Shown here one piece after another: positions 5,415-40,578 of a stretch of 47,187 nucleotides of DNA (its first letter is position 1; each line of letters starts with the position of its first letter). The DNA lies in the NCBI GenBank assembly GCA_902778105.1, contig CACYWN010000016.1, positions 1 to 47,187 of the forward strand, read 5' to 3'. The notes below the pieces were generated by a model. That model searched no databases. It was not told where the DNA came from and worked only from the letters and a program-made list of their open reading frames with translations. The DNA is from an uncultured Bacteroidia bacterium. Lineage in GTDB: Bacteria; Bacteroidota; Bacteroidia; Bacteroidales; UBA932. A program made the translations under genes and the position numbers.

Positions 5415-5528
5415 TGGTGGCAGGCCCTCTCTTTTCAAACCTGTGCCACCCTCGGCACATAAGAGGGAGGGGCCCATTTATGGGAGGGGTCGCAGAGCGA
5501 CGGTTTGAAAAGAGAGGGCCTGTCACCA
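5415..5528. repeat. Family B cloverleaf-like element, intergenic copy (B1)
   Basis: Terminal arms 5415-5441 and 5502-5528 are inverted repeats matching at 26 of 27 positions; the inner 20 bp are perfect. Between them lie three small hairpins: GTGCC/GGCAC with a six-base loop, CCCAT/ATGGG, and GTCGC/GCGAC. The element fills the gap between the fmt stop (5529-5531) and the thiN start (5398). Its minus strand shares the loop and linker sequences of copies B2 and B3, but not their arm sequence. Confidence 0.85.
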
Positions 5529-7967
5529 TCATTCGTCGGCCGGCTTGGTCTTGAGGATTTCGGCCTTGGAGGTGCCTCGGGAGGTCCCATAGGTCTCCGG
5601 CTCCCGGAAGCCGAGGAGGAAGGACTTGACGTCCATCCGTTTCTTGCCGGCGAGCTGGATGTCGGTGAGGGAGAGGGCGCCGTCGGCCGTGGCGATGGCC
5701 AGGTAGGTCTTTCCGTCGGAAAGGACGGTGCCGGGTGCGGCGTGGAGGTCGGCCCGCATTTCGCCGAAGAAGACCTTCAGCTGGATGGCCTGGCCGTCTT
5801 TCGTGAGTTCGGTGAAGGCGCCGGGGAACGGGGAGAGGCCACGGACCAGGTTGTATACGTTCTGGGTGGTGTCGTCCCAGTCGATATGCTGGAGTTCGCG
5901 GGTGAGCTTGGGTGCCGGTTTGAGCTGTTCGGAACCTTGGACGAAGCTGCGCTGGACGCGGGTTTCGATATTCTTCTGGATGAGTCCTTCGACCGTCTGG
6001 ACCACCAGGTCGGCACCGAGGGCCATCAGCTTGTCATGGACGTCGCCGGCCGTGTCGGTCGGGGCTATCCGGCATTCCTCGCGGAGGAGGATGCCGCCGG
6101 TGTCGATCTGCCTGTCGATCATGAAGGTGGTCACGCCTGTGAGGTGCTCGCCGTTGATGACGGCCCAGTTGATCGGGGCGGCGCCGCGATACTGCGGCAG
6201 GAGGGCCGCATGGAGGTTGAAAGTGCCCATCTTGGGCATCTTCCAGACCACTTCCGGGAGCATCCGGAAGCCTACGACCACGAACAGGTCCGCCTTCCAG
6301 GCTGCGAGGGCCGTCAGGAACTCCGGATCCTTGAGTTTGTCCGGCTGGAGGACGGGGATGTCATGGGCGACGGCGTATTTCTTCACGGCGCTTTCGTTCA
6401 TCTTGAGGCCGCGGCCGCTGGGCTTGTCCGCCACGGTGACCACGCCGACCACCTTGTACCTGCCCTGGACCAGGGCGTCAAGCGGGGCAACGGCGAATTC
6501 CGGCGTGCCCATGTACACGATGCGAGTCTTGCGGAAAAGGGACATGATCTTGCTGAAAATCCGGCGCCTCCAGGTCTTGAAGGCATCGAGGTTGATGGCT
6601 TTTTCCCGGATGGCCATCCAGGTAAGGAAGGCACCGATCGGAATGAGGACGAAGGCAGATATGAACACGCCGACGAACGGGGCGGCGGCACCGTCCCGGG
6701 CCAGCTTCGTTCCCGAGATGTCCACGACCCAATACAGGACGAAGAACAGGATGGAAACGACAGCCGGGGTTCCCAGACCGCCCTTGCGGATAAGGGACCC
6801 GATGGGCGCGCCGATGAAGAAGAGGATGAAGCAGGCGAGGGCCTGGGCGAATTTCTTCCAGATTTCCACGTTGCTCCACCTCAGGAGCCGGGTGTATTCG
6901 TAGGCGTCCATTCCCTGGGTCTCCAGGGTGGACTGAAGCATCTGGGCGTTGGAAGCGGCCCCTTCCAAGGCTCGTTTGTAGTCCCTGGGATTCTCCCATT
7001 TTGCGGGTCTGAGTTCCAGCTCCATCGGTTTTTTCCCACCCTCTTTCCAGTTGGTGTCCAACTGGTTCCGGAACATCAGGGCGCTGGAGCCGCGGAGTTC
7101 CGCCAGGTGTTTGGCCAGGCCGGCGGCGGCCAGCTCGCCCAGCGAGTCGCGCCCGTGCTTGAGCTGCTCGTTGGACATGGAGCGGACCTGTTCGCCGTAA
7201 CGGGCGGAATCGGAGTGCTGGAACGAGTAGTTCTCCAGCGGGATCACCAGTTCCTGGCGGGAGAAGTGGATCTTCTGCAGGGCCAGGGTGGTGTCGCGGT
7301 ATTTGCGGGTGTTGGTCTCCTGGTAGTTGGTCCCGTCGTACAGCTGGAAGGTCAGGTAATCCTTGGCCTTGGACATCTTCATCATGCCGCTGTCGGCGAC
7401 GGTGAGCCGGGTGTTCCCTTTGTTGGACAGGTGGTCGTACACCATCACCCCGTACATCATTCCGGTTTCGTCATTCCGCTCGTCGATCCGGAGAATGTAA
7501 CCCTCGATGCCGTCATAGAAGGTGCCCTCCGGGATCTTGATCTCGGACTTGGTCCGGCCGATGTCGTCACGCATCGTATAGATCTGGTTGATCGAGTAGG
7601 GGACCAGCCGGTCGTTGATGAAGAAGGCGGCGATGCTGATCAGGGCGCTGGCGATGATCACCGGCGCGAGGATGCGGGCGAGGGAAATGCCGGCGGCCTT
7701 CATCGCCGTGAGCTCGTAGTTCTCGCCCAGGGCTCCGAACGTCATCATGGACGAAAGGAGCGTGGCAAGCGGCATGGCGATGGGCAGCACCTGGCAGCTT
7801 CCCCACATGAGGAATTCCAGGATGACCTTGAGTTCCAATCCCTTGCCGACCAGTTCATCGATGTACAGCCAGAGGAACTGCATCACCAGGATGAAGATGA
7901 CGATCGCCAGGATCGCAAAGAACGGTCCTATGAACGACTTCAATATGAACTGGTCCAGTTTCTTCAT
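5529..7967 (-). CDS. Fusion of LptG/LptF-family permease and methionyl-tRNA formyltransferase
   Basis: 812 residues without a stop between two complete proteins. Residues 1-470 are a YjgP/YjgQ (LptF/LptG) permease of the lipopolysaccharide export machine: membrane segments near 12-35, 55-80 and 98-118, a periplasmic domain (about 120-360), then three membrane segments (about 370-455). Residues 475-812 are a full-length Fmt, which formylates initiator Met-tRNA. Visible Fmt features are RIVYMGTPEFAV at the start, FNLHAALLPQYRGAAPI with the catalytic Asn and His, and MIDRQIDTGGIL with the catalytic Asp. The ATG at 6543-6545 (Met475) could also start a free Fmt. The gene starts immediately after a family A repeat whose GAAGGAATCTC abuts the ATG. 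Both domains look intact; the fusion itself is unusual. Confidence 0.9.
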   Translation of the reverse strand: MKKLDQFILKSFIGPFFAILAIVIFILVMQFLWLYIDELVGKGLELKVILEFLMWGSCQVLPIAMPLATLLSSMMTFGALGENYELTAMKAAGISLARILAPVIIASALISIAAFFINDRLVPYSINQIYTMRDDIGRTKSEIKIPEGTFYDGIEGYILRIDERNDETGMMYGVMVYDHLSNKGNTRLTVADSGMMKMSKAKDYLTFQLYDGTNYQETNTRKYRDTTLALQKIHFSRQELVIPLENYSFQHSDSARYGEQVRSMSNEQLKHGRDSLGELAAAGLAKHLAELRGSSALMFRNQLDTNWKEGGKKPMELELRPAKWENPRDYKRALEGAASNAQMLQSTLETQGMDAYEYTRLLRWSNVEIWKKFAQALACFILFFIGAPIGSLIRKGGLGTPAVVSILFFVLYWVVDISGTKLARDGAAAPFVGVFISAFVLIPIGAFLTWMAIREKAINLDAFKTWRRRIFSKIMSLFRKTRIVYMGTPEFAVAPLDALVQGRYKVVGVVTVADKPSGRGLKMNESAVKKYAVAHDIPVLQPDKLKDPEFLTALAAWKADLFVVVGFRMLPEVVWKMPKMGTFNLHAALLPQYRGAAPINWAVINGEHLTGVTTFMIDRQIDTGGILLREECRIAPTDTAGDVHDKLMALGADLVVQTVEGLIQKNIETRVQRSFVQGSEQLKPAPKLTRELQHIDWDDTTQNVYNLVRGLSPFPGAFTELTKDGQAIQLKVFFGEMRADLHAAPGTVLSDGKTYLAIATADGALSLTDIQLAGKKRMDVKSFLLGFREPETYGTSRGTSKAEILKTKPADE

Positions 7968-8028
7968 GAGATTCCTTCGCTGCGCTCGGAATGACAGAGG
8001 GTTAGGCTGAATGACAGGGACTTAGGCT
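7968..8028. repeat. Family A repeat plus tandem 20-bp tail at the alaS/lptG-fmt junction
   Basis: A family A copy (7968-7996, minus orientation) is followed by two near-identical 20-bp units, 7989-8008 and 8009-8028, each starting GAATGACAG and ending TTAGGCT. The second unit overlaps the alaS stop codon (8022-8024), and the palindrome ends at the base before the lptG-fmt ATG. The repeat therefore forms the entire intergenic leader. Confidence 0.8.
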
Positions 8029-10640
8029 GTCGCCAATTCGACGAGTTTGTCAAGGGCGGCCTTCAGGTTCGTGGTGTCGCGGCCGCCGGCCGTCGCGAGG
8101 CCGGGCTGTCCGCCGCCGCCGCCCTGGATGAGCTTGGCAGCCTCGCGGATGTCCTTGCCGGCGTTCTTGCCCCCCGCAACAAGGTCGTTGGAATACATCA
8201 GGACGAGGTTCGGCTTGCCGCCGAACTCGAAAGCGCCGCATACCGCCAGGTTCTCGGCCTTCTTCTGGAGAAGGAGGCCGATGTTCCGGGCCATGGCCGG
8301 ATCGACGGACATGTCGAAGCGGGCCACGCGGATGCCGTTCACTTCCTGGGCGTTCGCGCTCACGCGATCGGCCAGCTGGGCGGCCTTCTCGTTCGCGGCG
8401 GCCTCCAGCTGCTTGCGGGCTTCGGCATTCTCTTCCACGAGGCGCTGGATGGCGCCGGCGAGGTCGGGCACGTTGTTGAAGAAACCGCGGGCGGTCTTGA
8501 GCGTGGCTTCCATCGCGTGGACGTAGTTCTCGGCCGCTTCGCCCGTGAGGGCCTCGATCCGGCGGACACCGGCGGCGATGGCGCTCTCGGAGACGATCTT
8601 CAGCAGGCCGATGTTGCCGGTCGCGGAGGTGTGCGTACCGCCGCAGAGTTCCACGGAGTCGCCGAAGCGGACCACGCGGACCACGTCGCCGTACTTTTCG
8701 CCGAACAGGGCCATCGCGCCCATGGACTTGGCTTCGTCCATCGTCGCGTCACGCTTTTCCCAGAGCGGGAAGTTGCTGCGGATGAGGGCGTTGACCTTCC
8801 TTTCAGTGGCGAGGAGCTCCTCGTCGGTCATCTTGGCGAAGTGGGAGAAGTCGAAGCGGAAGTAGTCCGGGCCCACGAAGGAACCCTTCTGCTCCACATG
8901 GGTGCCCAGCACCTCGCGCAGGGCTTCGTGGAGAAGGTGCGTCGCGGAGTGGTTCGCGGCGATTTTCGCACGGCGGGCGGCATCGACGTGCAGGTCGAAG
9001 GACTCGGTCCCGTCGGCGGGCAGGCGCTCGGCGAGGTGGATGGTGAGGTTGTTCTCCTTGACGGTGTTCAGGATGGCGATCTTCTCGCCGGAGGCGCTGA
9101 CGATGCAGCCGGTGTCGCCCACCTGGCCGCCCATTTCGGCGTAGAAGGGGGTCTTGTCGAAGACGAGCTGGTAGAGCTCCTTGTTCTTCTGCTTGACCGT
9201 GCGCTGCTTCAGGAGCGTGGCGCCCTCATAGTCCAGCAGGTCATAGCCCAGGAATTCCACCTCGTCGCCGGAAGCGAATTCCACCCAGTCGCCGAACTCG
9301 TTGGCGGTCGCGTTGCGGGCGCGTTCCTTCTGCTTGCCCAGCTCCACCTGGAAGCCGTCGAGGTCCACGGTATAGCCCTTCTCGGTGGCAATGAGTTCGG
9401 TCAGGTCGATCGGGAAACCGTAGGTGTCGTAGAGGACGAAGGCGTCCACGCCGGAGATGACCTTGGTGGCGGCGCTGCGGTCCATGGTGTCCTCCAACAG
9501 GCGGATGCCGCGGTCCAGCGTGCGCAGGAAGGCATTCTCTTCCTCGCGGATCACGCTTTCAACCAGCTTCTGCTGGGCCTTCAGTTCCGGATAGGCCTCG
9601 CCCATGTCTTCCACCAGCTGCGGGACCAGGCGGGTCAGGAACGGCTCGGTGAAGCCGAGGAAGGTGTAGCCGTAACGGACGGCGCGGCGGAGGATCCGGC
9701 GGATCACGTAACCGGCCTTCACGTTGGACGGGAGCTGTCCGTCGGCGATGGAGAAGGCGATGGCACGGATGTGGTCGGCGCAGACGCGCATGGCCACTTC
9801 CACCTTTTCATTCTCATGGTACTTGTGTCCGGAGAGTTCCTCCAGCTTGCCGATGAGGCCGCTGAACACGTCCGTCTCGTAGTTGGACGTCTTGCCCTGC
9901 AGGACCATGCACAGACGCTCGAAGCCCATGCCGGTGTCAATGTTCTTGGCGGGCAGCGACTCCAGATGGCCGTCGGCCTTGCGGTTGTACTGCATGAACA
10001 CGAGGTTCCAGATCTCGATGACCTCGTCGTTGTCCGTGTTCACGAGTTCCCGCCCGGGAACTTTCGCGATTTCCTCGTCGGAGCGCAGGTCGATATGGAT
10101 TTCCGAGCAGGGGCCGCAGGGACCCGTGTCGCCCATCTCCCAGAAATTGTCATGCTTGTTGCCGAGGAGGACATGGTCTGCCGGCATGTGCTTCAGCCAG
10201 GCGGCCTGCGCCTCGGTGTCCAGGGTGGTGCCGTCCTCGGCCGCGCCCTCGAAGACCGTCGCGTAGAGCTTGGTCTTGTCGATCTTGTACACCTCGGTGA
10301 GGAGCTCCCAGGCCCAGTCGATGGCCTCGGTCTTGAAATAGTCCCCGAAGCTCCAGTTGCCGAGCATCTCGAACATCGTGTGGTGGCGGCCGTCGTGGCC
10401 CACCGCCTCCAGGTCATTGTGCTTTCCGCTCACGCGGAGGCACTTCTGGCTGTCCGTGGCCCGGGGGAACTTGGGTTGGGTATTGCCCAGGAAAATATCC
10501 TTGAACTGGTTCATTCCCGCGTTCGTGAACATCAGGGTGGGGTCGTTCTTGATCACCATGGGGGCGCTGGGAACGATGGTGTGTCCCTTGGAAGCGAAGA
10601 ATTCCAGGTACTTCTGTCGAATCTCTTTTGCAGTCATCAT
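8022..10640 (-). CDS. alaS: Alanyl-tRNA synthetase
   Basis: 872 residues, the normal length. Charges tRNA-Ala in the cytosol. The class II catalytic domain begins [19 protein letters not shown]; the editing domain carries the zinc-binding [11 protein letters not shown] and [10 protein letters not shown] motifs; the C-terminal part ends in the [14 protein letters not shown] oligomerisation/C-Ala region. The open frame runs further upstream to 11084 across the MATE gene, but homology begins at the ATG pair at 10635-10640, 22 bases after a good -7 box, so I start at 10640 (MM; the second Met may be the true start). A family A repeat with a tandem tail begins at its stop codon. Confidence 0.96.
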
Positions 10641-10661
10641 AATCACACTTATAATATCCTG

Positions 10662-10669
10662 CAAATATA
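10662..10669 (-). promoter_or_regulatory. -7 box for alaS
   Basis: TATATTTG on the minus strand fits TAnnTTTG, 21 bases from the alaS start, in the AT-rich gap between alaS and the MATE gene. It supports the short alaS start. Confidence 0.7.
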
Positions 10670-10687
10670 CGGATTTTATATGGAATT

Positions 10688-12142
10688 TCAAGCATTTGGA
10701 ATGGCCTTCCGCCACCGGAGGGTCAGGTAGAGGGCACGGACGGCAAGATGGGTGAAATAGGCGCCCATCAGGATGTGGATGGCGAGCGTCTCGGGAACGG
10801 CTCCGAGGAGGGCTTTTGCCAGGCTGATGCCCGCGAACCAGACCCCGAAAAAGCCCACGACACACCAGGCGGTGGAGTTCCGCAGGTCCTTTGAGGCGGT
10901 GGCTCCGGTGAAGATGCCGTCCCAGGTGAAGGCCGGGCAGCCGATGACGGGCATCAGCAGCAGCCAGGGAATGAATTCCCGTCCCGCTTCCACGACGTCC
11001 GGGTCCGAAGTCATGAGCTTCAGCAGGGGCACGCCGCCCACCCCGTACACCAGGAAAAACACGCCCGTCACACCCAGGCTCCAAAGGAAGGTCTGACGGA
11101 TGGTGGACATCACCCCTTCATGGGATCCTTCTCCGATGAAACGCCCCGTCAGCGCCTCCCCGGCATAGGCAAACCCATCGGTGAAGTAGCTGAAAATCAT
11201 CAGTAATTTCATCAGGATCGCCCCCACGGCCAGCATCATGTCGCCATACCGGGCCGATATCATCGTGAACCCGATGTACACGGCGATCATGCACATGGAC
11301 CGGAGGAACAGGTCGCGGTTCAGCACGAAGAATGCCCGCCAGCCTTTTCTGTCGAGATCCCTTCGTCGGTCTTCGACCTCCTCGGGATGACAGTCTGTCA
11401 TTCCGGCGTTCCCTTCTGTCATTCCGAGCGAAGCGAAGGAATCTCCCGCCTCCCGGAAAATCCGTCCATACCGCCGCCGGACGGCGATGGCTGCATAGGT
11501 GAATCCCGTCCACTGGGCGATGAGCGTGCCGTAGGCGACACCGGCAAAGCCCAAGGCCGGGAGGCCGGCATAGCCGAAGGCCAGCCCCACGGACAGGAGG
11601 ATGTTCGTGAAATTGACGATCAGGTCGCAGGCCATGGGCCGGACCGTATCCTGCATGCCGATGAACCAGCCCTTGAAAGCGAACAGCGAGAGGGTGGCGG
11701 GCGCCGCCCAGATGCGGATGTAAAAGTATTGGGTAGCAAGGGTCTGCACCTCCGGAGAACAGTCTACCAGCAGGAATGCGACCTGCACGACCACCCATTG
11801 CAGCGCCACCAGCGCCAGGCCAGACCCGAAGGCGATTCCCAGTGCCCGTTTCAGCGTCACGGCGATCTCGCGGACCGCTTCGGGAATCCCGCTCCGCCAT
11901 CTTCCGTAGGCCTGAGCCGTCAGGCCGCCCGTGCCACCCCGCAGGAATCCGAAATTCCAGTAGAGCATGTCGAAGAGCATCGTGCCGATGGAGATGCCGC
12001 CGATGAGGGTGGCGGCGGGGATGGCGCCCGAAGCGCCCAGGTGGCCGGCCACGGCGATGTCCACCATGCCCACGAGGGGGACGGTGATGTTCGCGAAAAT
12101 GCTCGGGACGGCGAGCTTCAGGATGTTCCGGTGGAGGTTCAT
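10688..12142 (-). CDS. MATE-family efflux transporter (DinF-like)
   Basis: 484 residues with about twelve hydrophobic segments, an inner-membrane drug/cation antiporter by family. The start [19 protein letters not shown] and the motif [13 protein letters not shown] are typical of the DinF branch. Residues about 232-265, in the cytoplasmic loop between the two six-helix halves, are foreign to the family and are encoded by a head-to-head pair of family A repeats (11354-11445). The frame is kept, so the transporter may still work with a longer loop. The start codon overlaps the rsgA stop (ATGA), so the two genes are translationally coupled. The substrate cannot be told. Confidence 0.9.
11354..11445. 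repeat. Family A inverted repeat pair inside the MATE gene
   Basis: Copy one, 11354-11392 (minus orientation), has stem ATCCC/GGGAT and an inner GGTC/GACC stem. Copy two, 11417-11445 (plus orientation), has stem ATTCC/GGAAT. A partial copy starting TGTCATTCCGG lies between them at 11396-11406. The arrangement matches the pair at 3745-3858. On the minus strand it is read in frame as about 34 residues of polar loop. Confidence 0.85.
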
Positions 12143-13071: not shown

Positions 13072-13100
13072 TCGTCGTGCTTTTTGAACAGTTCGTACCG

Positions 13101-13108
13101 CAAAGATA
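13101..13108 (-). promoter_or_regulatory. -7 box for rsgA
   Basis: TATCTTTG on the minus strand, 29 bases before the rsgA ATG. It is divergent from the malQ promoter just to its right. Confidence 0.65.
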
Positions 13109-13140
13109 AGGGTTTGTTTTGAAACTCCGTCCCGATTCCG

Positions 13141-33900: not shown

Positions 33901-34062
33901 ACCGGCGAAGGTTCCGAAATGTGGAGGGGCCTCGGTATCACCGTTGCCTGGGGTCTGTCGATCTCTACCCTCATCACCCTCGTCATCATCCCGGTCCTGT
34001 ACTGCGGCATCACCGAACACCGTGAACGCCGCCAGGCCCGCCGGGCTGCTAAAAACAACTGA
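30955..34062 (+). CDS. RND efflux permease (AcrB/HAE1-like)
   Basis: 1035 residues, full length. Proton-driven inner-membrane pump with twelve membrane helices and two large periplasmic loops. The proton-relay Asp pair is in GMVVDDAIVVLEN (D399, D400 in TM4). Other RND motifs are YPGASAEDVENNLT near 51-64, and GIVVKNGIVLIDY with MTTLTTVLGMLPMAWGTGEG in the second half. Drug specificity cannot be read. It is followed by a PII-like protein two bases downstream, an arrangement seen in Bacteroidetes pumps. Confidence 0.95.
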   Translation: MSIYRTSVNHPVTTALVFVAFAILGIFALTRLPVDNFPDVESNVIMVMSSYPGASAEDVENNLTKVLENSLNGVANLKDITSNSRENISVLTLEFNYETDIEVATNDVRDKLSMVSQTLPDGASSPTIFKFSVDDMPIMIMSATADQSVSALDKILDDRVATPLARVTGVGTVSVAGAPQREIQVYCDPTKLEAYGLSIAAISQVIAAENRNVPSGNIDIGSDTYTLRIKKEFKDPSELNDIVLGSFNGGTVYLRDVARVQDGLEERSQESYTNGVRGAQIIIQKQSGYNTVNVIRGVKKEMKRLERNLPSDIKVTTVVDSSDNILNTINSLKETILITFLVVMLVVYVFLGRWRGTLIVILSIPIALLASLIYLFATGNTLNIISMSALSIAIGMVVDDAIVVLENVTTHLERGEKPKEAAVHGTAEVGISVIASTLTMLCVFLPLTMISGMAGIMFKQLGWIVSIIMIVSTSAALTLVPMLCSQLLTNENKSGKLYHFIFDPVNRALDAFSAWYSRVIAWCMNHKRIVMVAAAVVFAGVLAIYMPRMKTEYFPTQDQGRIQVSVELPIGTAQDVTRDLAARLYEKIMADVPEVKVLSYNFGQADSDNAFASMRNNGTYLITMNINVGSMEDRKRSTAEIADLIRADLRQFPEINKSTVTEGGMGMGGRASVQLEIYGYDFDETEDAARKMRDKMLENPNFIQVVLSRDQYTPEYEVDFDREKLALNGLTSTTAAAAVSAAMNGTVASFYREDGEEYNIRVRFAPEFRESVADIENIVITNPQGRGIRVRDLGQVVESRVPPTITRKNRDRYITVTGMMARGHALSEGVEAVTAMLEADPLPSGLSWDIGGDYEDQQNMFSDMILLMLLIVILVYMVMASQFESFLGPLVIMFSIPFAFTGVALGNMLHGMAVGVMSMIGIIILLGIVVKNGIVLIDYTILCQERGMSVRDSSVTAARSRLRPILMTTLTTVLGMLPMAWGTGEGSEMWRGLGITVAWGLSISTLITLVIIPVLYCGITEHRERRQARRAAKNN

Positions 34063-34064
34063 TT

Positions 34065-34358
34065 ATGAAAGCGATATTCATTGCCTACAACCAGGCCTAC
34101 AACCAGGAAATCGTGGAACTCCTCGAGTCCTGCGGCCAGCGGGGTTACACCGTCTGGGAGGAAATCGGCGGCCGGGGCACCGAGGACGGGGAGCCCCATC
34201 TGGGCAACCACGCCTGGCCCACGCAGAACCATGCCATCCTTACGGCCGTTCCGAACGACCTTGCACCCGTCATCATGGACCGTCTCCGCGATACGGACCG
34301 CGATAACCCGAAGCTGGGTCTGCGGGCCTATGTCCTCCCGGTGGAGGATGCACTGTGA
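34065..34358 (+). CDS. PII-like transporter-associated protein (PG0541 type)
   Basis: 97 residues with a ferredoxin-like beta-alpha-beta build: MKAIFIAYNQAYNQEIVELLESCGQRGYTVW, an acidic/Gly-rich T-loop-like stretch GGRGTEDGEPHLGNHAWP, then NHAILTAVPNDLAPVIMDRLRD and a final strand GLRAYVLPVE. Matches the small proteins found after RND pumps in Porphyromonas-type bacteria. It probably senses a ligand and tunes the pump, by analogy with PII-type regulators; this is inference. Confidence 0.8.
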   Translation: MKAIFIAYNQAYNQEIVELLESCGQRGYTVWEEIGGRGTEDGEPHLGNHAWPTQNHAILTAVPNDLAPVIMDRLRDTDRDNPKLGLRAYVLPVEDAL

Positions 34359-34369
34359 AAATAATTTGT

Positions 34370-34377
34370 TATATTTG
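34370..34377 (+). promoter_or_regulatory. -7 box for trxA
   Basis: TATATTTG, 23 bases before the trxA ATG. The gap after the efflux operon is AT-rich, unlike its surroundings. Confidence 0.6.
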
Positions 34378-34400
34378 CAAGGATATAAACGTTTTTACCT

Positions 34401-34715
34401 ATGGCAAAAGTAGCTACCAATACCAATTTCGAGGAGCTTCTCCAGGACGGGAAGCTCGTCATCGTGGATTTCTGGGCCACCTGGTGCGGCCCCTGCCGCA
34501 TGCTTTCCCCGCTTCTGGACGAGGTGGAGGAAGAGATGGCGGACAAGATCTCCGTCGTCAAGGTCAATGTGGACGACGCCGACGAGATCGCGATGAAGTA
34601 CCGCATCATGAACATCCCCACGCTGCTCTTCTTCAAGGGCGGCCAGCTGGTGGACAAGACCGTGGGCGCCATGCCCAAGAACGTCCTGGTGGACAAGATT
34701 AACGCTAACCTTTAA
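34401..34715 (+). CDS. trxA: Thioredoxin
   Basis: 104 residues. Cytosolic dithiol reductant. Active site WCGPC at residues 28-32, with the cis-Pro motif MNIPTLLFF near 71-79 and the C-terminal Gly-containing helix. No signal peptide. Nine bases before the next gene, so probably co-transcribed. Confidence 0.95.
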   Translation: MAKVATNTNFEELLQDGKLVIVDFWATWCGPCRMLSPLLDEVEEEMADKISVVKVNVDDADEIAMKYRIMNIPTLLFFKGGQLVDKTVGAMPKNVLVDKINANL

Positions 34716-34724
34716 ACGTATCAT

Positions 34725-35363
34725 ATGAAAAAGATTTTGGCCATAGCGGCCCTTTTCGCCTCGATGGCGGCTGCCAGCGCCCAGCAGTTCGGCGTGATTG
34801 GTGGACTCTCCCTTTCCACCATGGACGGTGCCAAGAATCCCGATGAAAACAAGCTGATGACCCTGTATCAGGCCGGTGTCGCCTTCAAGGCCGACCTCGG
34901 TGCCGGTTTCGCCATCCAGCCCACCCTGTCCTATTCGGTGAAAGGTGCGAACCTCAAGCAGAACAATGATGTCGTTTCCAAGACCGGCTTTGCCGAGCTT
35001 TCCGTGGGTTTACAGTGGGGACCGGACCTGCTGGCTTTCCGTCCTTACCTGTTCGTCGAACCTTTCGTGGGTTACGGCGTTACCGGCAGCGAGATTCTGC
35101 GGATGTCCGGCACCGAAACTACCGTGGCGTCCATCAACAAGGCCCTTGATGAGGCAAAGAACAAACTCGAATATGGTGTAGGCGCAGGCCTCGGTGTGGA
35201 AATCGCCTCCCATATCCAGCTGTCCTGCCAGTTGTTCCGCAATTTCGGCCCCCTTTACAAGGCCGACAGCCTGAATACCGGTGATCTGAAGGACATCAAG
35301 TCCTCTTACGTAGACCTCAAGAACTATCAGGGGGTCAAGATCAACCTGGCCATCCTGTTCTGA
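34725..35363 (+). CDS. Outer membrane beta-barrel protein
   Basis: 212 residues with signal peptide MKKILAIAALFASMAAASA followed by alternating beta strands (FGVIGGLSLST, GFAIQPTLSYSV, YGVGAGLGVEI, LSCQLFRNFG) and a C-terminal hydrophobic strand ending ILF, all typical of small PorT/OmpW-like barrels in Bacteroidetes. The function is unknown. Confidence 0.85.
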   Translation: MKKILAIAALFASMAAASAQQFGVIGGLSLSTMDGAKNPDENKLMTLYQAGVAFKADLGAGFAIQPTLSYSVKGANLKQNNDVVSKTGFAELSVGLQWGPDLLAFRPYLFVEPFVGYGVTGSEILRMSGTETTVASINKALDEAKNKLEYGVGAGLGVEIASHIQLSCQLFRNFGPLYKADSLNTGDLKDIKSSYVDLKNYQGVKINLAILF

Positions 35364-35366
35364 CCG

Positions 35367-35900
35367 ATGCCGGAGCGTAGGGCTGTCGTCTTCTGCTCGG
35401 CCAGTTACGACATCGATCCGAAGTACAATGAGGCAGCGCGTGAAGTAGTTCGCGCGCTGCGTGCTTATGGTTGGACCCTGGTCTCCGGCGGCAGTTTCCG
35501 TGGAACGATGGGAGCGGTTGCGGACGAGATGGAGCGGCTGGGAGGCTGTCACATAGGCGTGATGCCCCGTTTCATGGCCGGTCTGGAGTATCCGCGGCTG
35601 GACGAGTTGGTGTGGACGGATACGATGGCCGAGCGGAAGGAGCGGATGCGGGAGGGAGCTTCCGCCGTCATCGCCCTTCCCGGCGGCATCGGCACCCTGG
35701 ATGAACTGATTGAAACACATGTTCTGGCCAAGCTGGGCCGTTTCCAGGGGAAGATTCTTGCCCTGAACCTGGAGGGCTTCTTCGAGCCTTTCAAGGCGTT
35801 GTTGGACCACTATGAGAAAACCGGCATGCTGGATGCCCGCGACCGGGGCCTGGTGGTTTTCGCCGATACGGTGGAGGAATTGGCCGGATATCTGAAATAG
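35367..35900 (+). CDS. LOG-family protein (TIGR00730 Rossmann fold)
   Basis: 177 residues. Family members are phosphoribohydrolases acting on nucleoside 5'-monophosphates (LOG/YvdD type). The nucleotide motif VSGGSFRGTMGAVADE replaces the usual GGGxxGLMG, while M..RK-like MAERKERMREGASAVIALPGGIGTLDEL retains the PGGxGTxxE catalytic signature. Three bases after the barrel gene and six before the prenyl synthase gene. The substrate is not certain. Confidence 0.88.
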   Translation: MPERRAVVFCSASYDIDPKYNEAAREVVRALRAYGWTLVSGGSFRGTMGAVADEMERLGGCHIGVMPRFMAGLEYPRLDELVWTDTMAERKERMREGASAVIALPGGIGTLDELIETHVLAKLGRFQGKILALNLEGFFEPFKALLDHYEKTGMLDARDRGLVVFADTVEELAGYLK

Positions 35901-35906
35901 GAAAGG

Positions 35907-36884
35907 ATGGATCTGCAAGGAGTCAAAGGTTTTCTCTCCGGGCCGATGTCGGAGGTGGAGGCAATGCTGGAGGAATCCCTCCGGAGCGACATTTCGTTGC
36001 TGGACGCGACGAACCGGTCCCTTCTCACGCAGGGCGGAAAGCGGATGCGTCCCGTCCTGTCGTTGCTTTCTGCAGGGGCCTGCGGCGGCATCAACCCCGA
36101 TTCCATCCGCTTTGCGGCGGCCTCGGAACTGATCCATAATTCCACCCTCCTCCATGACGATGTCGTGGACGGGGCGACCCTGCGGCGGGGACGGCCGACG
36201 GTGATGGCGATCCTCAGCGGTCCGGCGTCGGTGCTGCTGGGAGACTTCTGGCTTGTGAAGGCCGTCCGGTGCATCCTGGACGCCTCCCGGGATAGTGAAC
36301 GGGTGATCCGCCTGTTTGCCAAGACGCTGTCCGATTTGGCGGAAGGGGAGTTGCTCCAGATGCAAAAGGCTTCCTCCGCGGATACCACCCGGGACGATTA
36401 TCTGCGCATCATCTATTCCAAGACCGCGTCCCTGTTCGAAGCGTCCGTCCTGTCCGGGGCGGTTTCCGCCGGGGCACCGGAGGAATGGACGGCGGCACTT
36501 ACCGGTTATGCCCGGAACCTGGGCCTGGCGTTCCAGATCAAGGACGATATATTCGACTATGCCGGGGAAGTTTCGTTGGGCAAGCCGGTGGGTATCGACC
36601 TTCGGGAGCAGAAAATCACCCTTCCGCTGCTGTGTGCGCTGGATTCCGTTCCGGCGGAAGAGGCGGCGGAAATCCGGTCCAAGGTCCGCCGGATTGCCGA
36701 TGCACCGGAACTGGCGGAATCGGTCCGCGACTTCGTACTGGCGCACGGCGGCGTGGATAGCGCGGCTGCCGAGATGGAAAAATACATTGAAACGGCGATT
36801 TTCTGCCTGGAGGAGCTTCCCTCTTCCACGGAAAAATCGTATCTTGCAAAGTTAGCCCGCTATGTGGGCGAAAGAGCTTATTGA
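35907..36884 (+). CDS. Polyprenyl diphosphate synthase
   Basis: 325 residues. Trans-isoprenyl chain elongation enzyme, probably making the menaquinone side chain (this links functionally to ubiE in the window). First Asp motif LLHDDVVDGATLRRG (about 81-95), second FQIKDDIFDY (about 210-219), with GGKRMRPVLSLLSA earlier. The second motif has DDIFD, as usual for long-chain enzymes. Chain length cannot be set from sequence. Confidence 0.92.
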   Translation: MDLQGVKGFLSGPMSEVEAMLEESLRSDISLLDATNRSLLTQGGKRMRPVLSLLSAGACGGINPDSIRFAAASELIHNSTLLHDDVVDGATLRRGRPTVMAILSGPASVLLGDFWLVKAVRCILDASRDSERVIRLFAKTLSDLAEGELLQMQKASSADTTRDDYLRIIYSKTASLFEASVLSGAVSAGAPEEWTAALTGYARNLGLAFQIKDDIFDYAGEVSLGKPVGIDLREQKITLPLLCALDSVPAEEAAEIRSKVRRIADAPELAESVRDFVLAHGGVDSAAAEMEKYIETAIFCLEELPSSTEKSYLAKLARYVGERAY

Positions 36885-36886
36885 GA

Positions 36887-37879
36887 ATGGATATCCTTTC
36901 CAGCAACGCACCGGTAGCGGCAGCCCTCCACCAGATGGCGGAGAGCGGCCGGATTCCGCATGCGATGCTGTTCCACGAAAACGACGGCGGGGGAGCCTTT
37001 CCCCTGATCCTCGGTTTCCTGGATGAGGTGTACGGGCATAATCCCCGTGTCACGAAACTTATCCATCCCGACATCCATTTCGTGTTCCCGGTCACCGGTC
37101 CGGCCAAAGATAAACCGGTTTCAGACCAGTTCATCCGCCCGTGGCGTGAATTGCTGCAGACGAACCCCTGTTTTTTCGAGAACGAACTCTATACCGCCAT
37201 TGGCATCGAGGGAAAACAGGGACTCATTTCGGTCAACGAGGCGCGTTCCATCCTGGACAAACTGTCCTTGTCCGCCGTGGAAGGCGGGTATCGGACGGTC
37301 GTGATGTATTTGCCCGAGAAAATGAACCAGCAGGCGGCCAACGCCCTCCTGAAGATGATCGAGGAACCGCCGGAGAACACGCTTTTCCTGTTGGTCACGC
37401 TCCAGCCCGAAAAGGTGATGACGACCATCTTCTCCCGCTGCCTTTTCCTGCGTGTGCCTCCGTTCTCCCGGGAGGAGGACCGTGCCATCCATGCGAAGGA
37501 GGTGGCGGAGATGACGGAATTGTCCGACTTGTTCCACGATCTGCTGGACGCCTTGGTCCGAAAGGACCTTCTGGGCGCACTGGAGACGGGAGAAGCCGTG
37601 GCGGCCCTGGAATCCCGGGAAAAGCAGAAAACCTTCTGCCGGGTGGCCTCGGACGGACTCCGGAACATTTTCCTGCTGCAGCAGGGGCTTCCGGATCTGG
37701 CAGACCTCCTCGGGGGCGAGCGGCCTTTCTTCGAGAAGATGGCCGGGACGCTCCGTCGCAACTTTCCCCGGCAGGCCCTTGCCGCCCTGGACAGGGCGCT
37801 TCTGCTGCTGGAGCGGAACGTTAACCAGAAAATCCTGTTCACCGACCTGGTGGACCGGCTCTATATATCAATGCTATGA
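36887..37879 (+). CDS. holB: DNA polymerase III delta' subunit
   Basis: 330 residues. Clamp-loader subunit. IPHAMLFHENDGGGAFPLILGFL near the N-terminus corresponds to the P-loop region but the Walker A is degenerate, as in delta'. Then SVNEARSILDKLSLSAVEGGYRTVVMYLPEKMNQQAANALLKMIEEPPENTLFLLVT is the classic HolB segment. I start at the ATG 36887, since the open frame's earlier TTG at 36881 overlaps the upstream stop. Overlaps ricT by ATGA. Confidence 0.92.
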   Translation: MDILSSNAPVAAALHQMAESGRIPHAMLFHENDGGGAFPLILGFLDEVYGHNPRVTKLIHPDIHFVFPVTGPAKDKPVSDQFIRPWRELLQTNPCFFENELYTAIGIEGKQGLISVNEARSILDKLSLSAVEGGYRTVVMYLPEKMNQQAANALLKMIEEPPENTLFLLVTLQPEKVMTTIFSRCLFLRVPPFSREEDRAIHAKEVAEMTELSDLFHDLLDALVRKDLLGALETGEAVAALESREKQKTFCRVASDGLRNIFLLQQGLPDLADLLGGERPFFEKMAGTLRRNFPRQALAALDRALLLLERNVNQKILFTDLVDRLYISML

Positions 37880-39042
37880 TGGATTCAAACGAAAATGTAA
37901 GATATGACTGCTTCCGCGGGTGCGTGATCAGCGGTAACGAGGATACGGGGATGGAAGAGATCCGTTACCGCCAGGGCTGCTGCAAACTGGAGGTGTACGA
38001 CTACCTCAAGGGCATCGGCCAGGAGCAGTTCGGCAATCTCTTCGAGGTCCGTTTCAAGAATACCCGGAAAGGCATTTATGTCAATGCTTCCGGCCAGAGC
38101 GTCAAGACCGGCGACCTGGTGGTCGTCGAGGCCCAGACGGGCCACGACCTGGGTATCGTGACCCTGGAAGGGCCGATTGTCGCACGCCAGATGAAGTGCA
38201 AGGGCATTGACCCGGAAAAGACGGTCTTCAAGAAGATTTACCGGAAGGCGAAGCCTTTCGACATCGAACGCTGGCAGGACGCCATCGCCCGCGAACAGGA
38301 GACGATGATCCGCTCCCGCGTGCTGGCCGCCAACCTGGGCCTGGAGATGAAGATCGGGGACGTGGAGTTCCAGGGGGACGGTACGAAGGCGATCTTCTAC
38401 TATATCGCCGACGGCCGTGTGGACTTCCGGCAGCTGATCAAGGATTTCGCCGAAGAGTTCCATATCCGCGTGGAAATGAAGCAGATCGGCGCCCGTCAGG
38501 AAGCCGGTCTCATCGGCGGTCTGGGTATCTGCGGCCGCGAACTGTGCTGCGCCAACTACATCACGGAGTTCAAGTCCATCACGACTTCCGCAGCCCGGGT
38601 GCAGGACCTTTCCCTGAATCCGCAGAAGCTGGCCGGCCAGTGCGGCAAGCTCAAGTGCTGCCTGAACTATGAGGTATCGGCCTACATGGATGCCCACTCC
38701 CGGATCCCGAAGGTGACGGAACCGCTGGAATTCGGGGATGGTCTGGCCTATCTCGTGAAGACAGACATCCTCCGCGAGACGATGTATTTCTCCTACGAGA
38801 AAGGTTCCCTGGCGAAGATGTACCCGCTCCCGGCATCCGAAGTGCGCGAAATCATCATGATGAACCGCAATGGCCAGAAGCCCGAAACGCTTCTTCCCGA
38901 GGCGGAACCGGTCGCTCCGGAATTCGTCACCGCCGTCGGCGACGATAGCATATCCCGTTTCGACGAAGCGCGCAGGAAGAAACGCCGGAACAAGGGCGGT
39001 AACCGGAACAAAGGAAAGAATAGACCAAAGAAAGATGCCTAG
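37876..39042 (+). CDS. ricT: PSP1-domain protein RicT
   Basis: 388 residues. The PSP1 domain lies at about 60-150 and the C-terminal half carries the conserved cysteine motif GGLGICGRELCCANYITEF and GQCGKLKCCLNYE (about 213-265), known in RicT/YaaT to bind Fe-S as part of the RicAFT complex affecting RNase Y. The very basic C-terminal tail (RRKKRRNKGGNRNKGKNRPKK) could bind RNA. In the order holB-ricT-gldH, common in Bacteroidetes. Its stop is four bases before the family B element B2. Confidence 0.92.
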   Translation: MMDSNENVRYDCFRGCVISGNEDTGMEEIRYRQGCCKLEVYDYLKGIGQEQFGNLFEVRFKNTRKGIYVNASGQSVKTGDLVVVEAQTGHDLGIVTLEGPIVARQMKCKGIDPEKTVFKKIYRKAKPFDIERWQDAIAREQETMIRSRVLAANLGLEMKIGDVEFQGDGTKAIFYYIADGRVDFRQLIKDFAEEFHIRVEMKQIGARQEAGLIGGLGICGRELCCANYITEFKSITTSAARVQDLSLNPQKLAGQCGKLKCCLNYEVSAYMDAHSRIPKVTEPLEFGDGLAYLVKTDILRETMYFSYEKGSLAKMYPLPASEVREIIMMNRNGQKPETLLPEAEPVAPEFVTAVGDDSISRFDEARRKKRRNKGGNRNKGKNRPKKDA

Positions 39043-39045
39043 GAC

Positions 39046-39195
39046 GGGTATGACCTCTCCCAACCGTCGCTCTGCGACCCCTCCCACGGCAAGCCGTGGG
39101 TCCCTCGAAGGAGTAGCAAACGGGGCCCCCGAAAATCTGTCGATTTTTGGGGTGTCTCGGCCGAGGGTGGCCGCAGGTTTGTGGAGGTCCTACCC
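39046..39195 (+). repeat. Family B element at the 5' end of the gldH-like gene (B2)
   Basis: Terminal arms 39046-39065 and 39176-39195 pair at 16 of 20 positions. Inside are GTCGCTCTGCGAC (39066-39078, the same arm as in B1), a CCCACGGC/GCCGTGGG hairpin with an AA loop, an extra CCCCGAAAATC/GATTTTTGGGG-type arm absent from B1 and B3, and the CGGCC/GGCCG arm with the conserved GAGGGT loop. It begins four bases after the ricT stop. Confidence 0.8.
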
Positions 39196-39610
39196 GATCT
39201 GCGTAGTACTGTCTCTATTACTGGTAACGGGGTGTCGGGAACCGATGTCGGTGGAGCGGTTCGTGAAGGGGGAGGGCCCGTATTCGTTCTTCGTCGACCT
39301 GAGCGACAGTACGGCTACCTACGATTTTGAATTCTATACACGGGTGGATGCGCCGCTGGACTCCCTGCGGAAGTTGACGGCCCTTCCGCTCCAGGTGACA
39401 TGGACCTCTCCTTCTTTCCATGTTTTCCGGGAGGAAGTGTATATGCCCATGGAGGGCAGGACTACCTTCTTCTCCCGGGAAGTCCGGACGCCCTACCGGG
39501 CGGATGTCCAGCCGGTTGAACCCGGATCCTGGACGCTGATGGTCCGGGCGGAAGACCTTCCGGAAGGATTCTGCGGACTGGGGCTGGTTGTCAAACGGAA
39601 TCGACAGTAA
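39050..39610 (+). CDS. gldH: GldH-like lipoprotein with repeat-derived 5' end
   Basis: From the only available ATG (39050, within the left arm of B2) the product is 186 residues, but the first 43 are encoded by the repeat. A lipoprotein signal follows: WRSYPICVVLSLLLVTGC. Starting at GTG 39167 or TTG 39179, also in the repeat, would give 147 or 143 residues and a proper short signal peptide, which I consider more likely. The mature part (SFFVDLSDSTATYDFEFYTRVDAPLDSLRK... and a C-terminal LPEGFCGLGLVVKR) resembles GldH, an outer-membrane lipoprotein tied to gliding/type IX secretion machinery, and its place after ricT agrees. Similarity is weak, so the name is moderate confidence. The stop overlaps the trmB start by one base. 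Confidence 0.6.
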   Translation: MTSPNRRSATPPTASRGSLEGVANGAPENLSIFGVSRPRVAAGLWRSYPICVVLSLLLVTGCREPMSVERFVKGEGPYSFFVDLSDSTATYDFEFYTRVDAPLDSLRKLTALPLQVTWTSPSFHVFREEVYMPMEGRTTFFSREVRTPYRADVQPVEPGSWTLMVRAEDLPEGFCGLGLVVKRNRQ

Positions 39611-40578
39611 TGGGACACGGTAAACTCAAGAAATTCGCGGAGAACGAGACTTTCCGCTGCCTGCTGCAGCCGGATGCCGCTTCGGTCCTGGCTAAGCCGG
39701 AAGGGTCGAAGGAACTGATACTCAGGGACCATGCCATCAAAGGCCGGTGGAATTCCGACATGTTCGAAAAGCCCCAGCCCATCGTCGTGGAACTGGGTTG
39801 CGGCAAGGGAGACTACACCATCGCCCTGGCCCGCCGGCATCCGGAAATGAATTTCATCGGGGTGGACATCAAGGGTGCCCGGTTGTGGAAAGGAGCCAAG
39901 GAAGCGACGGAGGACGCGCTCGGGAACGTGGCCTTTCTCCGCACCCGCATCGAGTTCATCGATGCTTTCTTCGGACCCTCCGAGGTTTCCGAGATCTGGC
40001 TCACCTTCTCGGATCCCCAGCTTCGCGGCAGCGAGAACGCCCGCCTCACTTCGCCGCTGTTCCTCCAGCGCTACAGTCGCTTTCTCCGTCCCGGGGGCAT
40101 CGTCCATCTGAAGACGGATTCCCGGTTCCTGTACGAATATACCCAGTCTGTCATCCGGGCCAATGACCTTGAGGTCTTGGCTTTCGGAACGGACATCTAT
40201 CATGACGGTATTCTGTCGGGGCACATCCCCGAAAACCGTTTCCACTTCGCTCCGACCCCTCCCATCGCAAGCGATGGGCCCCTCCCTCTTATGTGCCCGA
40301 GGGTGTGCACAGGTTTTCAGGGATGCGCCCCGGCAGAATACAATGCATGGGATATTAATGCCGTGTTTGAAGTGCAGACTTTCTATGAGACGATGTTCCT
40401 GAAGATGGGCCTGCCTATTACGTATCTGGCGTTCCGGCTGGACCGGGCGGAGCTTCCGCCGGGGGCGCCGTTCGCCTATCCGACGGACTTCGATGCGGCC
40501 TACTGGCGCGAGGCCGAAGGTCCCCGTCGGTCGTTCAGTCATCAGCCTGCGAAAAGGCCGTCGAATGGAAGTGATTGA
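39610..40578 (+). CDS. trmB: tRNA (guanine-46-N7)-methyltransferase with repeat-encoded insert
   Basis: 322 residues, about 70 longer than usual. SAM-dependent N7-methylation of G46 in tRNA. SAM motif VVELGCGKGDYTIALARRHPEMNFIGVDIKG; EIWLTFSDPQLRGSENARLTSPLFLQRYSRFLRPGG is the TrmB signature with its catalytic Asp. The DIYHDG motif near 195-200 is normally followed shortly by the TFYE segment, but here residues about 200-245 are encoded by family B element B3, in frame, before VQTFYETMFLKMGLPITYLAF. The last 15 codons and the stop are part of structure C. Whether the enzyme tolerates the insert is unknown; no stop or frameshift is seen. Confidence 0.9.
   Translation: MGHGKLKKFAENETFRCLLQPDAASVLAKPEGSKELILRDHAIKGRWNSDMFEKPQPIVVELGCGKGDYTIALARRHPEMNFIGVDIKGARLWKGAKEATEDALGNVAFLRTRIEFIDAFFGPSEVSEIWLTFSDPQLRGSENARLTSPLFLQRYSRFLRPGGIVHLKTDSRFLYEYTQSVIRANDLEVLAFGTDIYHDGILSGHIPENRFHFAPTPPIASDGPLPLMCPRVCTGFQGCAPAEYNAWDINAVFEVQTFYETMFLKMGLPITYLAFRLDRAELPPGAPFAYPTDFDAAYWREAEGPRRSFSHQPAKRPSNGSD
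40208..40341 (+). repeat. Family B element inside trmB (B3)
   Basis: Terminal arms 40208-40237 and 40312-40341 are inverted repeats matching at 27 of 30 positions, yet they share no sequence with the arms of B1. Inside, CCCATCGC/GCGATGGG with an AA loop (40260-40277) and TGTGC/GCACA with a GAGGGT-containing loop (40292-40311) match the arms of B1 and B2, and the linker CCCCTCCCTCTTATGTGCC is nearly identical to B1. The first arm (GTCGCTCTGCGAC in B1/B2) is altered here. Confidence 0.88.

Follow-up and report, generated by a model that had tools for sequence, protein, structure and literature searches.

The structured repeat found three times in the window (the whole stretch of DNA analyzed, 47,187 nucleotides) is probably a small non-autonomous mobile element whose core spreads and whose arms are made from the target at each site. 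This reading, in which the mobile unit is the core and each target supplies the arms, rests on the separate histories of cores and arms and on one clear empty site in yggS/PLPBP. The source genome has about 27 copies, including the three in the window. The element was found in 50 of 61 sampled genomes of the source genus and is thus common within one Bacteroidales group. The comparison stretches (at least 117) were all from uncultured Bacteroidales or Bacteroidia MAGs, many of them named for ruminant gut compartments.

The element is approximately 110-175 bp long and has four helices and a pseudoknot. The core consists, in order, of AACC, hairpin P2, hairpin P3, a linker, hairpin P4, and GGTT. 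Many cores start with C-GTC, the GTC being within the P2 stem, and no core-internal gene was recognized on reading any version of the element. Arms of approximately 26 nt flank the core, paired with each other within a copy and unrelated between copies.

Copy 1 (5415-5528, located here at 5416-5527, minus strand) is between the stop codon of an ORF at 5529-7967 and the start of an ORF at 4742-5398, both also on the minus strand. Its 5' arm (27 nt, 5502-5528, ending in AACC) and 3' arm (27 nt, 5415-5441, starting with GGTTT) match at 26 of 27 positions. Hairpin P3 (CCCATAAATGGG, 5473-5484) was identified from its sequence; the linker CCCTC (5463-5467), the 5' side of the pseudoknot, from its sequence and from covariation at this position in the family; and hairpin P4 (TGTGCC-GAGGGT-GGCACA, 5442-5459), whose loop is the 3' side of the pseudoknot, from sequence, alignment, and covariation. 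Copy 2 (39040-39201, plus strand) is at the stop codon of the ORF at 37876-39042. Its core (39066-39175) has an extra hairpin inside, its P3, seen in the sequence, is CCCACGGC-AA-GCCGTGGG (39083-39100), and its arms are less perfect, with the weakest match of the three copies (21 of 30 over the aligned stretch). Putative orthologous elements in two relatives (L249 and L260) have similar arms and outer flanks, as judged by reading.

Copy 3 (40212-40337, plus strand) is in frame within trmB (39610-40578, plus strand, 322 aa; NCBIfam TrmB equivalog NF001080, 235.5 bits), which is open through the copy. It consists of a 5' arm (40212-40237), a 74-nt core (40238-40311), and a 3' arm (40312-40337); reverse-complemented, the 3' arm agrees closely with the 5' arm, matching in 32 of 38 aligned columns, one gap included. 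P3 is CCCATCGC-AA-GCGATGGG (40261-40278, from sequence), and both the CCCTC linker (40284-40288) and P4 (40292-40311, with the GAGGG loop at 40299-40303) were assigned from sequence and covariation. The initial annotation had described three copies with common internal sequence, and its hairpins (CCCAT/ATGGG, CCCACGGC/GCCGTGGG, and CCCATCGC/GCGATGGG), linker, and GAGGGT loop are present as described. Its arm match for copy 1 stands, and that for copy 2 had been counted as 16 of 20 on a shorter stretch. We amended the strand of copy 1, the extra core hairpin of copy 2, and the location of copy 3 inside a gene.

Copies 1 and 3 fold better than expected by chance. Selection for structure in the core is plausible. 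The pseudoknot between the linker and the P4 loop, suggested earlier as a possible contact between CCCTC and GAGGG, was borne out by covariation: 200 of 207 distinct sequence contexts (uncorrected for relatedness, a few of them outside the family) could pair, with six pair types, compared with a mean of 131 after shuffling. In an alignment of 15 of 24 elements (the other nine were partial, aberrant, or missed by the search pattern), the structure paired in 93.1% of cells and in no more than 46.9% when slid by one to three columns, and 23 of 28 outer pairs had changed on both sides. Folded as single-stranded DNA, copies 1 and 3 had z scores of -8.05 and -5.31, and none of 200 shuffles matched either. 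Stripped of its outer arms, the copy 3 core did not differ clearly from its shuffles (z score of -1.13, 27 of 200 folding equally well). The view that this is a real, repeated, structured element and not simple copying holds.

Cores and arms had different histories. Among 51 non-orthologous pairs with similar P3 hairpins (at least 24 nt, P3 identity at least 0.85), the identity was 0.925 for cores and 0.360 for arms, the baseline for arms being 0.352 (289 unrelated pairs). Two copies in one genome (G037 L243 and L368) had identical 92-nt cores and an arm identity of 0.45, and recent pairs within one genome had an arm identity of 0.386, slightly above baseline. For 49 elements, the nearest neighbor by arm was an ortholog in 22.5 cases and a paralog in 2.5 (0.8 and 2.3 by chance), and the nearest neighbor by core was a paralog in 15.5, an ortholog in 9.5, and another element in 24.

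These results make it quite improbable that the element is an ordinary MITE with strongly diverged terminal inverted repeats that are read by a transposase. Like a MITE, it is small and non-autonomous, with inverted-repeat ends and many copies. However, recent copies of a MITE should share these ends, and here the arms of recent pairs were at about baseline and those of paralogs at chance; moreover, reading of the yggS site, and of trmB and ygiQ, showed no direct duplication of the target. The MITE explanation would account for a weak motif common to the arms (AACC, YYY at positions 8-10, and RRRR at 17-20), for the copies just inside the ends of an IS1182-family IS, whose arms stay similar between IS copies, and for three copies at different places in one genome (G186) that have similar arms. 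One of these three (L419) adjoins a putative IS-like terminus, as judged by reading.

The arms were of narrow length and had a purine-pyrimidine pattern. The match between left and right arms was at least 0.76 up to position 26, 0.43 at position 29, and approximately 0.3 beyond position 32. Among 110 elements picked for pairing arms and required to have a regular junction, the arms ended within a few bases and there was no consensus outside them. Counting from the core, position 5 was a purine in 95%, positions 8-10 a pyrimidine in 94-96%, and positions 18-20 a purine in 84-88%.

At yggS/PLPBP, one arm is old coding DNA and the other is new. All comparisons of empty and filled sites were made between species. 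The empty site in G019 reads EEEIIAI-CEDTPSPIANIRIRG and contains one arm as coding DNA. In the filled genes of G005 and G037, the G019 host residues flank the insert on both sides, the right arm codes for CEDIPAPL and, reverse-complemented, nearly gives the left arm. Filled genes have gained the core and, with it, 23 nt copied in reverse complement from the resident arm. The arm matched the empty site at 18 of 22 positions, and the host gap was 24 nt, the length of one arm. A further relative, G038, does not have the element and retains EDIPAPL. The G037 arm scored 15.2 against the empty site and was beaten by 2 of 103 others, an unrelated arm (L248, 16.9) and an ortholog (L294); the own-genome copy for this site ranked 25 of 103. 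This was the single clear comparison of an empty and a filled site that supported a host-derived arm.

Evidence for a host-derived arm at other sites was weaker or absent. The ranking used 105 arms and 28 names, several of them duplicate names of one element, and came to 21 rows. At ygiQ the evidence was suggestive: for four orthologs, 6, 7, 14, and 29 of approximately 99 other arms were as good. At trmB it was mixed. The gene has no insert in a relative (G003), and the copy 3 5' arm plus the bases just outside it were alike with the host DNA at 17 of 27 positions. However, a blind local alignment chose a different placement, in which 16 of 102 other arms were as good (G000), and L249 and L260 ranked 79 and 91 of 102. 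There was no support at truA (55 of 103), at the copy 2 site (87 and 94 of 104), at six intergenic sites compared with G003 (ranks of 90, 78, 103, 25, 29, and 73 of 103-104 for L027, L034, L032, L036, L030, and L035), at L037 (51), or in an aminotransferase-like gene (80); the L056 arm ranked 15 at its empty site. Nor was the host arm always on one side of the core, which also counts against a host-derived arm. The empty sites in relatives proposed in the initial annotation were found in clear form once. That annotation had also considered arms that are host sequence paired by chance; host sequence it is at yggS, and the pairing appears to come from copying.

The size of the host gaps makes it very improbable that the core enters pre-existing palindromes, with both arms being host DNA. 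At the empty yggS, trmB, ygiQ, and truA sites, the gaps were 13-24 nt and fit one arm or less, not two, and G019 and G038 hold a single arm at yggS. Insertion into palindromes would be consistent with a bare, coreless palindrome in G019 at the position orthologous to one site (L336) and with REP-like hairpins at several of the element's sites in relatives, but a bare palindrome can also be a deletion product. No direct target duplication was seen on reading yggS, trmB, and ygiQ. There is a possible 5-nt repeat (GAGGG) in truA of G037, and the remaining sites are too diverged to read.

Orthologous arms changed mostly in pairs. In 81 orthologous pairs, 621 arm changes were two-sided and paired, 139 were one-sided, and 53 were two-sided and unpaired. 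These 81 were kept from 101 non-independent pairs (165 elements), in 42 of which the orientation of the core was flipped, so either orientation occurs at orthologous sites. We considered gradual drift of the arms and rejected it; as judged by reading, the orthologous arms in the list look either near-unchanged or mostly replaced. Orthologous arms that were identical in three species lay beside flanks 84-89% alike, a stronger conservation than would be expected of simple copies of host DNA, which counts against host-derived arms.

The initial annotation had taken the paired, differing arms as a sign of selection for a folded RNA or single-stranded DNA, and this is probably the wrong cause for the arms. 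If the arms were the stem of a functional molecule that drifts with compensatory change, then the excess of paired two-sided changes, the pairing in 93% of alignment cells, and the absence of the arms from most empty sites tested would be expected. However, there was no excess of G-U among arm mismatches (on the core-sense strand, 47 G-T, 73 A-C, and 123 other in 3861 positions, from 155 distinct cores found by pattern, 143 of them with an arm score of at least 14). A separate stem measure, which halts at two consecutive mismatches, tends to overstate the paired fraction. Moreover, arms were unrelated even where cores were up to 100% identical, one arm at yggS is host coding DNA, and the same double changes can be produced by template switching, as described in the part of PMC8794818 that we drew on. 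We therefore regard selection for pairing as rather unlikely, and most likely the arms pair because one was copied from the other.

Template switching fits the later history of the element but is unlikely to have made the arms. It is described as homogenizing inverted-repeat arms and inverting the spacer between them (PMC8604942, in part) and as creating perfect stems (PMC8794818, in part), and both signatures, arm homogenization and core flips, were seen here. In one explanation, the core inserts with a short AACC/GGTT stem, and later template switching (quasi-palindrome correction) rewrites one existing flank as the other's reverse complement. At yggS, however, the host residues flanking the insert are intact left and right, which means that the second arm was added and did not arise by conversion of a flank. 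Neither the narrow arm length nor the target-like purine-pyrimidine pattern is predicted by this explanation. Template switching would account for upkeep and flips but not for how a conserved core reached dozens of sites.

In the copies read, insertion into a coding gene left the reading frame intact. The element is in frame in trmB, ygiQ, and yggS, and all 16 translated filled copies (4, 6, and 6, respectively) were stop-free, although the search patterns could show only copies with both sides in one frame. In a less selected set, 10 genomes whose yggS match was split in two, both pieces shared one open frame in all 10 (some of the ten inserts were read). Based on the translations, conserved proteins gain approximately 30-60 residues.

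Classical insertions carry their own ends and leave direct duplications. Here, we infer that one arm is copied from the target and that the pattern at yggS extends to other sites. The core would insert beside a host stretch, X, of approximately 22-24 nt, and an empty site L-X-R would become L-X-(AACC core GGTT)-X'-R, or the mirror image, where X' is a new reverse-complement copy of X. Copying of X' from X on insertion would give each copy its own closely pairing arms. Because AACC and GGTT pair, the 3' GGTT of the inserted strand could fold back on AACC and might prime synthesis along X (snap-back), which would stop after approximately two helical turns and then join R. The arms could later be homogenized and the core flipped by template switching from one arm to the other, and the purine-pyrimidine pattern (R at 5 and 17-20, Y at 8-10) may reflect target preference. 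We tentatively suggest, at somewhat less than even odds, an undescribed mode of insertion in which a single-stranded, pseudoknotted core snaps back GGTT on AACC and a polymerase copies approximately 23 nt of flank, so that an inverted copy of the target, chosen by pattern and not by exact sequence, replaces terminal repeats and direct duplications. We found no named class of mobile DNA with such a mode. If true, an element that builds its ends backwards from each target would be an added class of DNA movement.

We doubt that the element is moved as single-stranded DNA by a RAYT (Y1/HUH) transposase in the manner of REPs. The initial annotation had proposed a search for such enzymes. Matches to PF01797 (E of at most 1e-5) were present in 30 of 50 element-bearing and 2 of 11 element-free genomes (Fisher p = 0.018, genome completeness uncontrolled), but 0 of 20 PF01797 loci (2.7-4.3 kb each) had an R1 match (E of at most 0.1). 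These genomes also have REP-like hairpins of a GTC type, presumably a more natural RAYT partner. No transposase or reverse transcriptase tied to the element was found. The IS1182-family IS (NCBIfam NF033551, 425.6 bits) has related copies just inside its ends; its outer termini differ from the element arms, as judged by reading, and a search of its copies for one yielding an empty site found none.

The element resembles several known repeats. The Rickettsia palindromic elements (RPEs) are also short palindromic repeats in frame in conserved protein genes (PMC10969869, in part), a likeness that we drew by description, and RPE-4 and RPE-6 are among the CGTC-tagged kinds that, in the part of PMC3733652 consulted, apparently lack a dedicated transposase. 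RPEs are from a different phylum, whereas the element here has a pseudoknotted core and site-owned arms; RPEs are also said to lose repeat identity over time (PMC6649704, in part). REPs are interspersed, high-copy hairpins, like the element, of 20-40 bp with an unpaired GTAG or CGTC tag, the CGTC families apparently being without a transposase (PMC3733652, same part). The C-GTC start of many cores recalls this tag and the REPtrons of REPs and RAYTs, but the element is longer, its GTC is in the P2 stem, and it was not found beside RAYT genes. Coding palindromes in Nematomorpha mitochondria are long, perfect inverted repeats in translated genes, apparently kept perfect, and the part of PMC6649704 consulted makes no mention of a common mobile core.

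The arms also bear on the discovery of structured RNAs. Near-perfect covariation of a long stem can come from DNA copying without a selected fold, and the two cases can be distinguished by whether G·U pairs are in excess. The earlier view that no named element has this form agreed with our searches: no Rfam 15 family reached the gathering score on the window copies or on five element loci (the best sub-threshold match on the latter was mir-448, 40.2 of 90 bits), a phage collection had no match to the trmB region, and we recognized no description of such an element in the open-access literature. The only match in the window at the Rfam gathering threshold was SAM-II, located away from the element.

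All three copies claimed by the initial annotation were present. Copy 1 (5415-5528, minus strand) begins directly after a stop codon, copy 2 (39040-39201, plus strand) begins at the stop of the ORF at 37876-39042, and copy 3 (40212-40337, plus strand) lies in frame within trmB. Copy 2 has an extra hairpin, GGGGCCCCCGAAAATCTGTCGATTTTTGGGGTGTC, in its core (39066-39175) and the least perfect arms of the three, and may be decaying. A DNA search of the window's genome (G000) gave 25 matches to the core, two of them on a single element. With R1, a covariance model built on 15 copies, 27 places scored E <= 2.3e-8; five of these are members of a related subfamily located at or close to an IS1182-family element. 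In Rfam, the sole match at the gathering threshold in the window was a SAM-II riboswitch (42047-42106, plus strand, 58.1 bits) away from the element copies, and matches at five element loci were all below the gathering score.

Covariation between the linker and the P4 loop gave the clearest evidence for selection of the core as a single-stranded fold. The consensus consists of approximately 22 copy-specific nt, AACC, hairpin P2 (GTCGCTNNGCGAC and variants), CCCT, hairpin P3, the CCCCTCCCTC linker, hairpin P4 (GGCC-GAGGGT-GGCC and variants), GGTT, and approximately 22 nt complementary to the first 22. The P4 loop opens with two nucleotides that pair with the two after CCC in the linker, forming a pseudoknot. 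Among 207 contexts, found with a pattern that required GGG in the loop and not linker/loop pairing, the pairs were TC/GA (163), CC/GG (20), GT/AC (10), GC/GC (5), AT/AT (1) and AC/GT (1), and seven lacked full pairing; shuffling that ignored the kinship of contexts gave a mean of 131 and a maximum of 142 (2000 shuffles). These results support the CCCTC/GAGGG loop-linker contact suggested previously. P3 (CCCA...TGGG) is highly variable in length and sequence, yet mostly paired (923 of 1011 pairs Watson-Crick, counting until two consecutive mismatches). Energy alone does not set the core apart (folding z = -1.13 for copy 3 minus its outer arms).

The core moves without its arms. For 49 elements having both orthologs and paralogs, nearest neighbors by arm comprised 22.5 orthologs and 2.5 paralogs (0.8 and 2.3 by chance), and those by core 9.5 orthologs and 15.5 paralogs; the remaining 24 were 'other' in each comparison. 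We also compared 51 non-orthologous pairs with long P3 hairpins at least 85% identical, which should therefore have recent ancestry in common. Their mean core identity was 0.925 and their mean arm identity 0.360 (0.386 for the 16 same-genome pairs), against 0.352 for the arms of unrelated pairs. Two loci in genome G037 have identical 92-nt cores and an arm identity of 0.45, and loci L012 and L013 of G000 have a 63-nt P3 at 95% and an arm identity of 0.52. Because recent cores are alike and their arms are at baseline, we conclude that spread of the core, or its homogenisation between sites, does not involve the arms.

The exceptions were copies within IS1182 ends and three copies in G186. The related subfamily (loop GGGGG; loci L047-L052) flanks an IS1182-family transposase gene, just inside the IS termini, at C40:12095-14132 and C32:31474-33539 of G000. 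Arms were nearly the same between the two IS copies, and left-end arms differed from right-end arms. A further copy with right-end arms (L050) lies ~0.6 kb from one IS. The G186 copies (L416, L418 and L419) are in three separate places and have similar arms (AAAGGGNAATRTCCTGAAAAC), unlike those of the home genus; flanking sequence is also common to at least two of them.

The arms most likely pair through copying and not through selected folding. The initial annotation took outer arms that differ but pair as selection for a folded RNA or single-stranded DNA. In an alignment of 15 copies (A1), 23 of 28 outer pairs vary on both sides, which resembles strong covariation. But a selected RNA stem should tolerate G·U, and the arm mismatches of 143 elements gave no sign of this (47 G·T against 73 A·C, with 123 others, in 3861 positions). 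Between orthologous copies (81 pairs), there were 621 two-sided paired changes, 139 one-sided and 53 two-sided unpaired. Passages in two published accounts describe template switching between inverted repeats that homogenises arms and inverts the spacer (PMC8604942), and template switching that can give multi-base compensatory changes (PMC8794818). Of 101 orthologous pairs, a number of which share a site and so are not independent, 42 had the core inverted; between L272 of G005 and L372 of G038 it was flipped with 18 of 22 arm positions unchanged on both sides.

At L359, L364 and L370 (G005, G037 and G038), all 22 compared arm positions were identical on both sides and the flanks were just 84-89% alike, an identity not accounted for by neutral drift of host copies.

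In yggS (PLPBP; NCBIfam TIGR00044, 162.1 bits), one arm predates the insertion as host DNA, and its partner was added. Empty sites in relatives had been proposed as a check, and yggS of G019 is one: it reads ...GFSEEEIIAI-CEDTPSPIANIRIRGLMGMA and keeps the coding DNA of one arm. The filled genes of G005 and G037 read GFSEDEIMAI and GFSENEIMTI, then left arm and core, then CEDIPAPL...IRIRGLMGMA, with host residues retained on both sides of the insert. The right arm, TGCGAAGATATACCTGCTCCGCT, is host coding DNA and the left arm its near reverse complement, with AACC-core-GGTT between. The G037 arm matched the empty site at 18 of 22 positions, and the host gap there was 24 nt, the length of one arm; 2 of 103 other arms scored as high (ortholog L294 and unrelated L248). 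The G000 arm fit less well (rank 25/103, the number of other arms scoring as well). The yggS of G038 has no element and retains EDIPAPL; this site may have lost the element by deletion or never have been filled. At L294 and L409 in yggS, a separate in-frame segment of ~28 residues (ALSSLKSAKMKDEVPQTASSSSFLAQNK) lies beside the element in DFFY; it is also in G038, where the element is absent.

Support at other sites varied. The empty ygiQ (TIGR03904, 435.8 bits, under the cut-off for this partial protein) of G000 has CCCCCTCCGGA, as in the G005 right arm, and the arms of four orthologs ranked 6, 7, 14 and 29 of about 99. In trmB, empty G003 matched the G000 arm at 17 of 27 positions by gene-based alignment; blind ranks were 16/102 for this arm, 79/102 for L249 and 91/102 for L260. 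L056 ranked 15/104. Host-derived arms were unsupported at truA (55/103), window copy 2 (87 and 94 of 104), L037 in G019 (51), an aminotransferase-like gene in G038 (80), and six intergenic sites compared with G003 (25 to 103 of 103-104). At five of these six, the relative's spacer is shorter than the element flanks, so the pre-insertion state is unreadable there; at intergenic L034, ~7 nt is retained in the relative. The gap at the coding empty sites (yggS, trmB, ygiQ and truA) was 13-24 nt, which corresponds to at most one arm rather than two. With the caution that it has one clear empty site behind it and a second that is suggestive, we judge this inverted-target-copy signature to be without a known class.

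At L027 (G000 C14:51367-51483), one of the six intergenic sites, host sequence is copied once more as its reverse complement beyond the arms (TGAAGAAATG / CATTTCTTCA). At L332, L337, L399, L411 and other empty or replaced sites, relatives have REP-like hairpins (GTCATTTCGAGC.., GTCATGCTGAGCGAAG..) and other palindromes, which take the same gene ends and protein loops as the element; at L412 of G005, a REP-like hairpin is apparently inside an element.

Among elements selected for pairing arms, the left/right match was at least 0.76 up to position 26, 0.43 at 29 and ~0.3 past 32, with no consensus seen outside the arms. Arm positions 8-10 are pyrimidine (94-96%), position 5 purine (95%) and positions 18-20 purine (84-88%), and the bases themselves vary. 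If the arms are target DNA, this pattern would be a target preference at the purine/pyrimidine level, probably spaced about one helical turn. We suggest that one end of the core becomes attached to host DNA and that the core's GGTT end folds onto AACC; a polymerase would then copy ~23 nt of host sequence, and the strand would finally be linked to the far flank. Later template switching during replication would correct the arms and flip the core. As for the Y1/RAYT transposase raised by the initial annotation, PF01797 (Y1) genes were commoner with the element (30 of 50 element-bearing versus 2 of 11 element-free genomes, p = 0.018, genome completeness uncontrolled), but none of 20 loci examined had an element near such a gene.

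No stop codon was seen in 16 translated filled copies, in trmB (G000, G019, G038, G057), ygiQ (G005, G037, G038, G057, G034, G019) and yggS (G005, G037, DFFY, G000, G003, JAFZOU), found with patterns that reveal just copies with both sides in one frame. Where the yggS match was split in two, both pieces were in one open frame (10 of 10 genomes). The core was reversed in three of six ygiQ copies (G038, G034 and G019). In the core-sense consensus, all frames are free of stop codons outside P3. Rickettsia palindromic elements, as described in PMC10969869, are likewise in-frame coding insertions, a likeness of behavior. Open-access literature on in-frame palindromic elements, RPEs, small inversions, pseudoknotted repeats, inverted target duplication and snap-back insertion yielded no such element, and we judge the family to be new.

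Within the genus, 50 of the 61 sampled genomes had a match to the element (E <= 0.001). Across the order, 3 of 149 genomes were positive at E <= 1e-7 with stricter filters: G000, G186 (another genus of the same family) and G088 (another family). Four copies read outside the home genus have the same architecture and the loop ACGGG. A pattern scan of named genomes gave at least 117 stretches; among the matches listed, all titles were uncultured Bacteroidales or Bacteroidia MAGs, many from ruminant gut.
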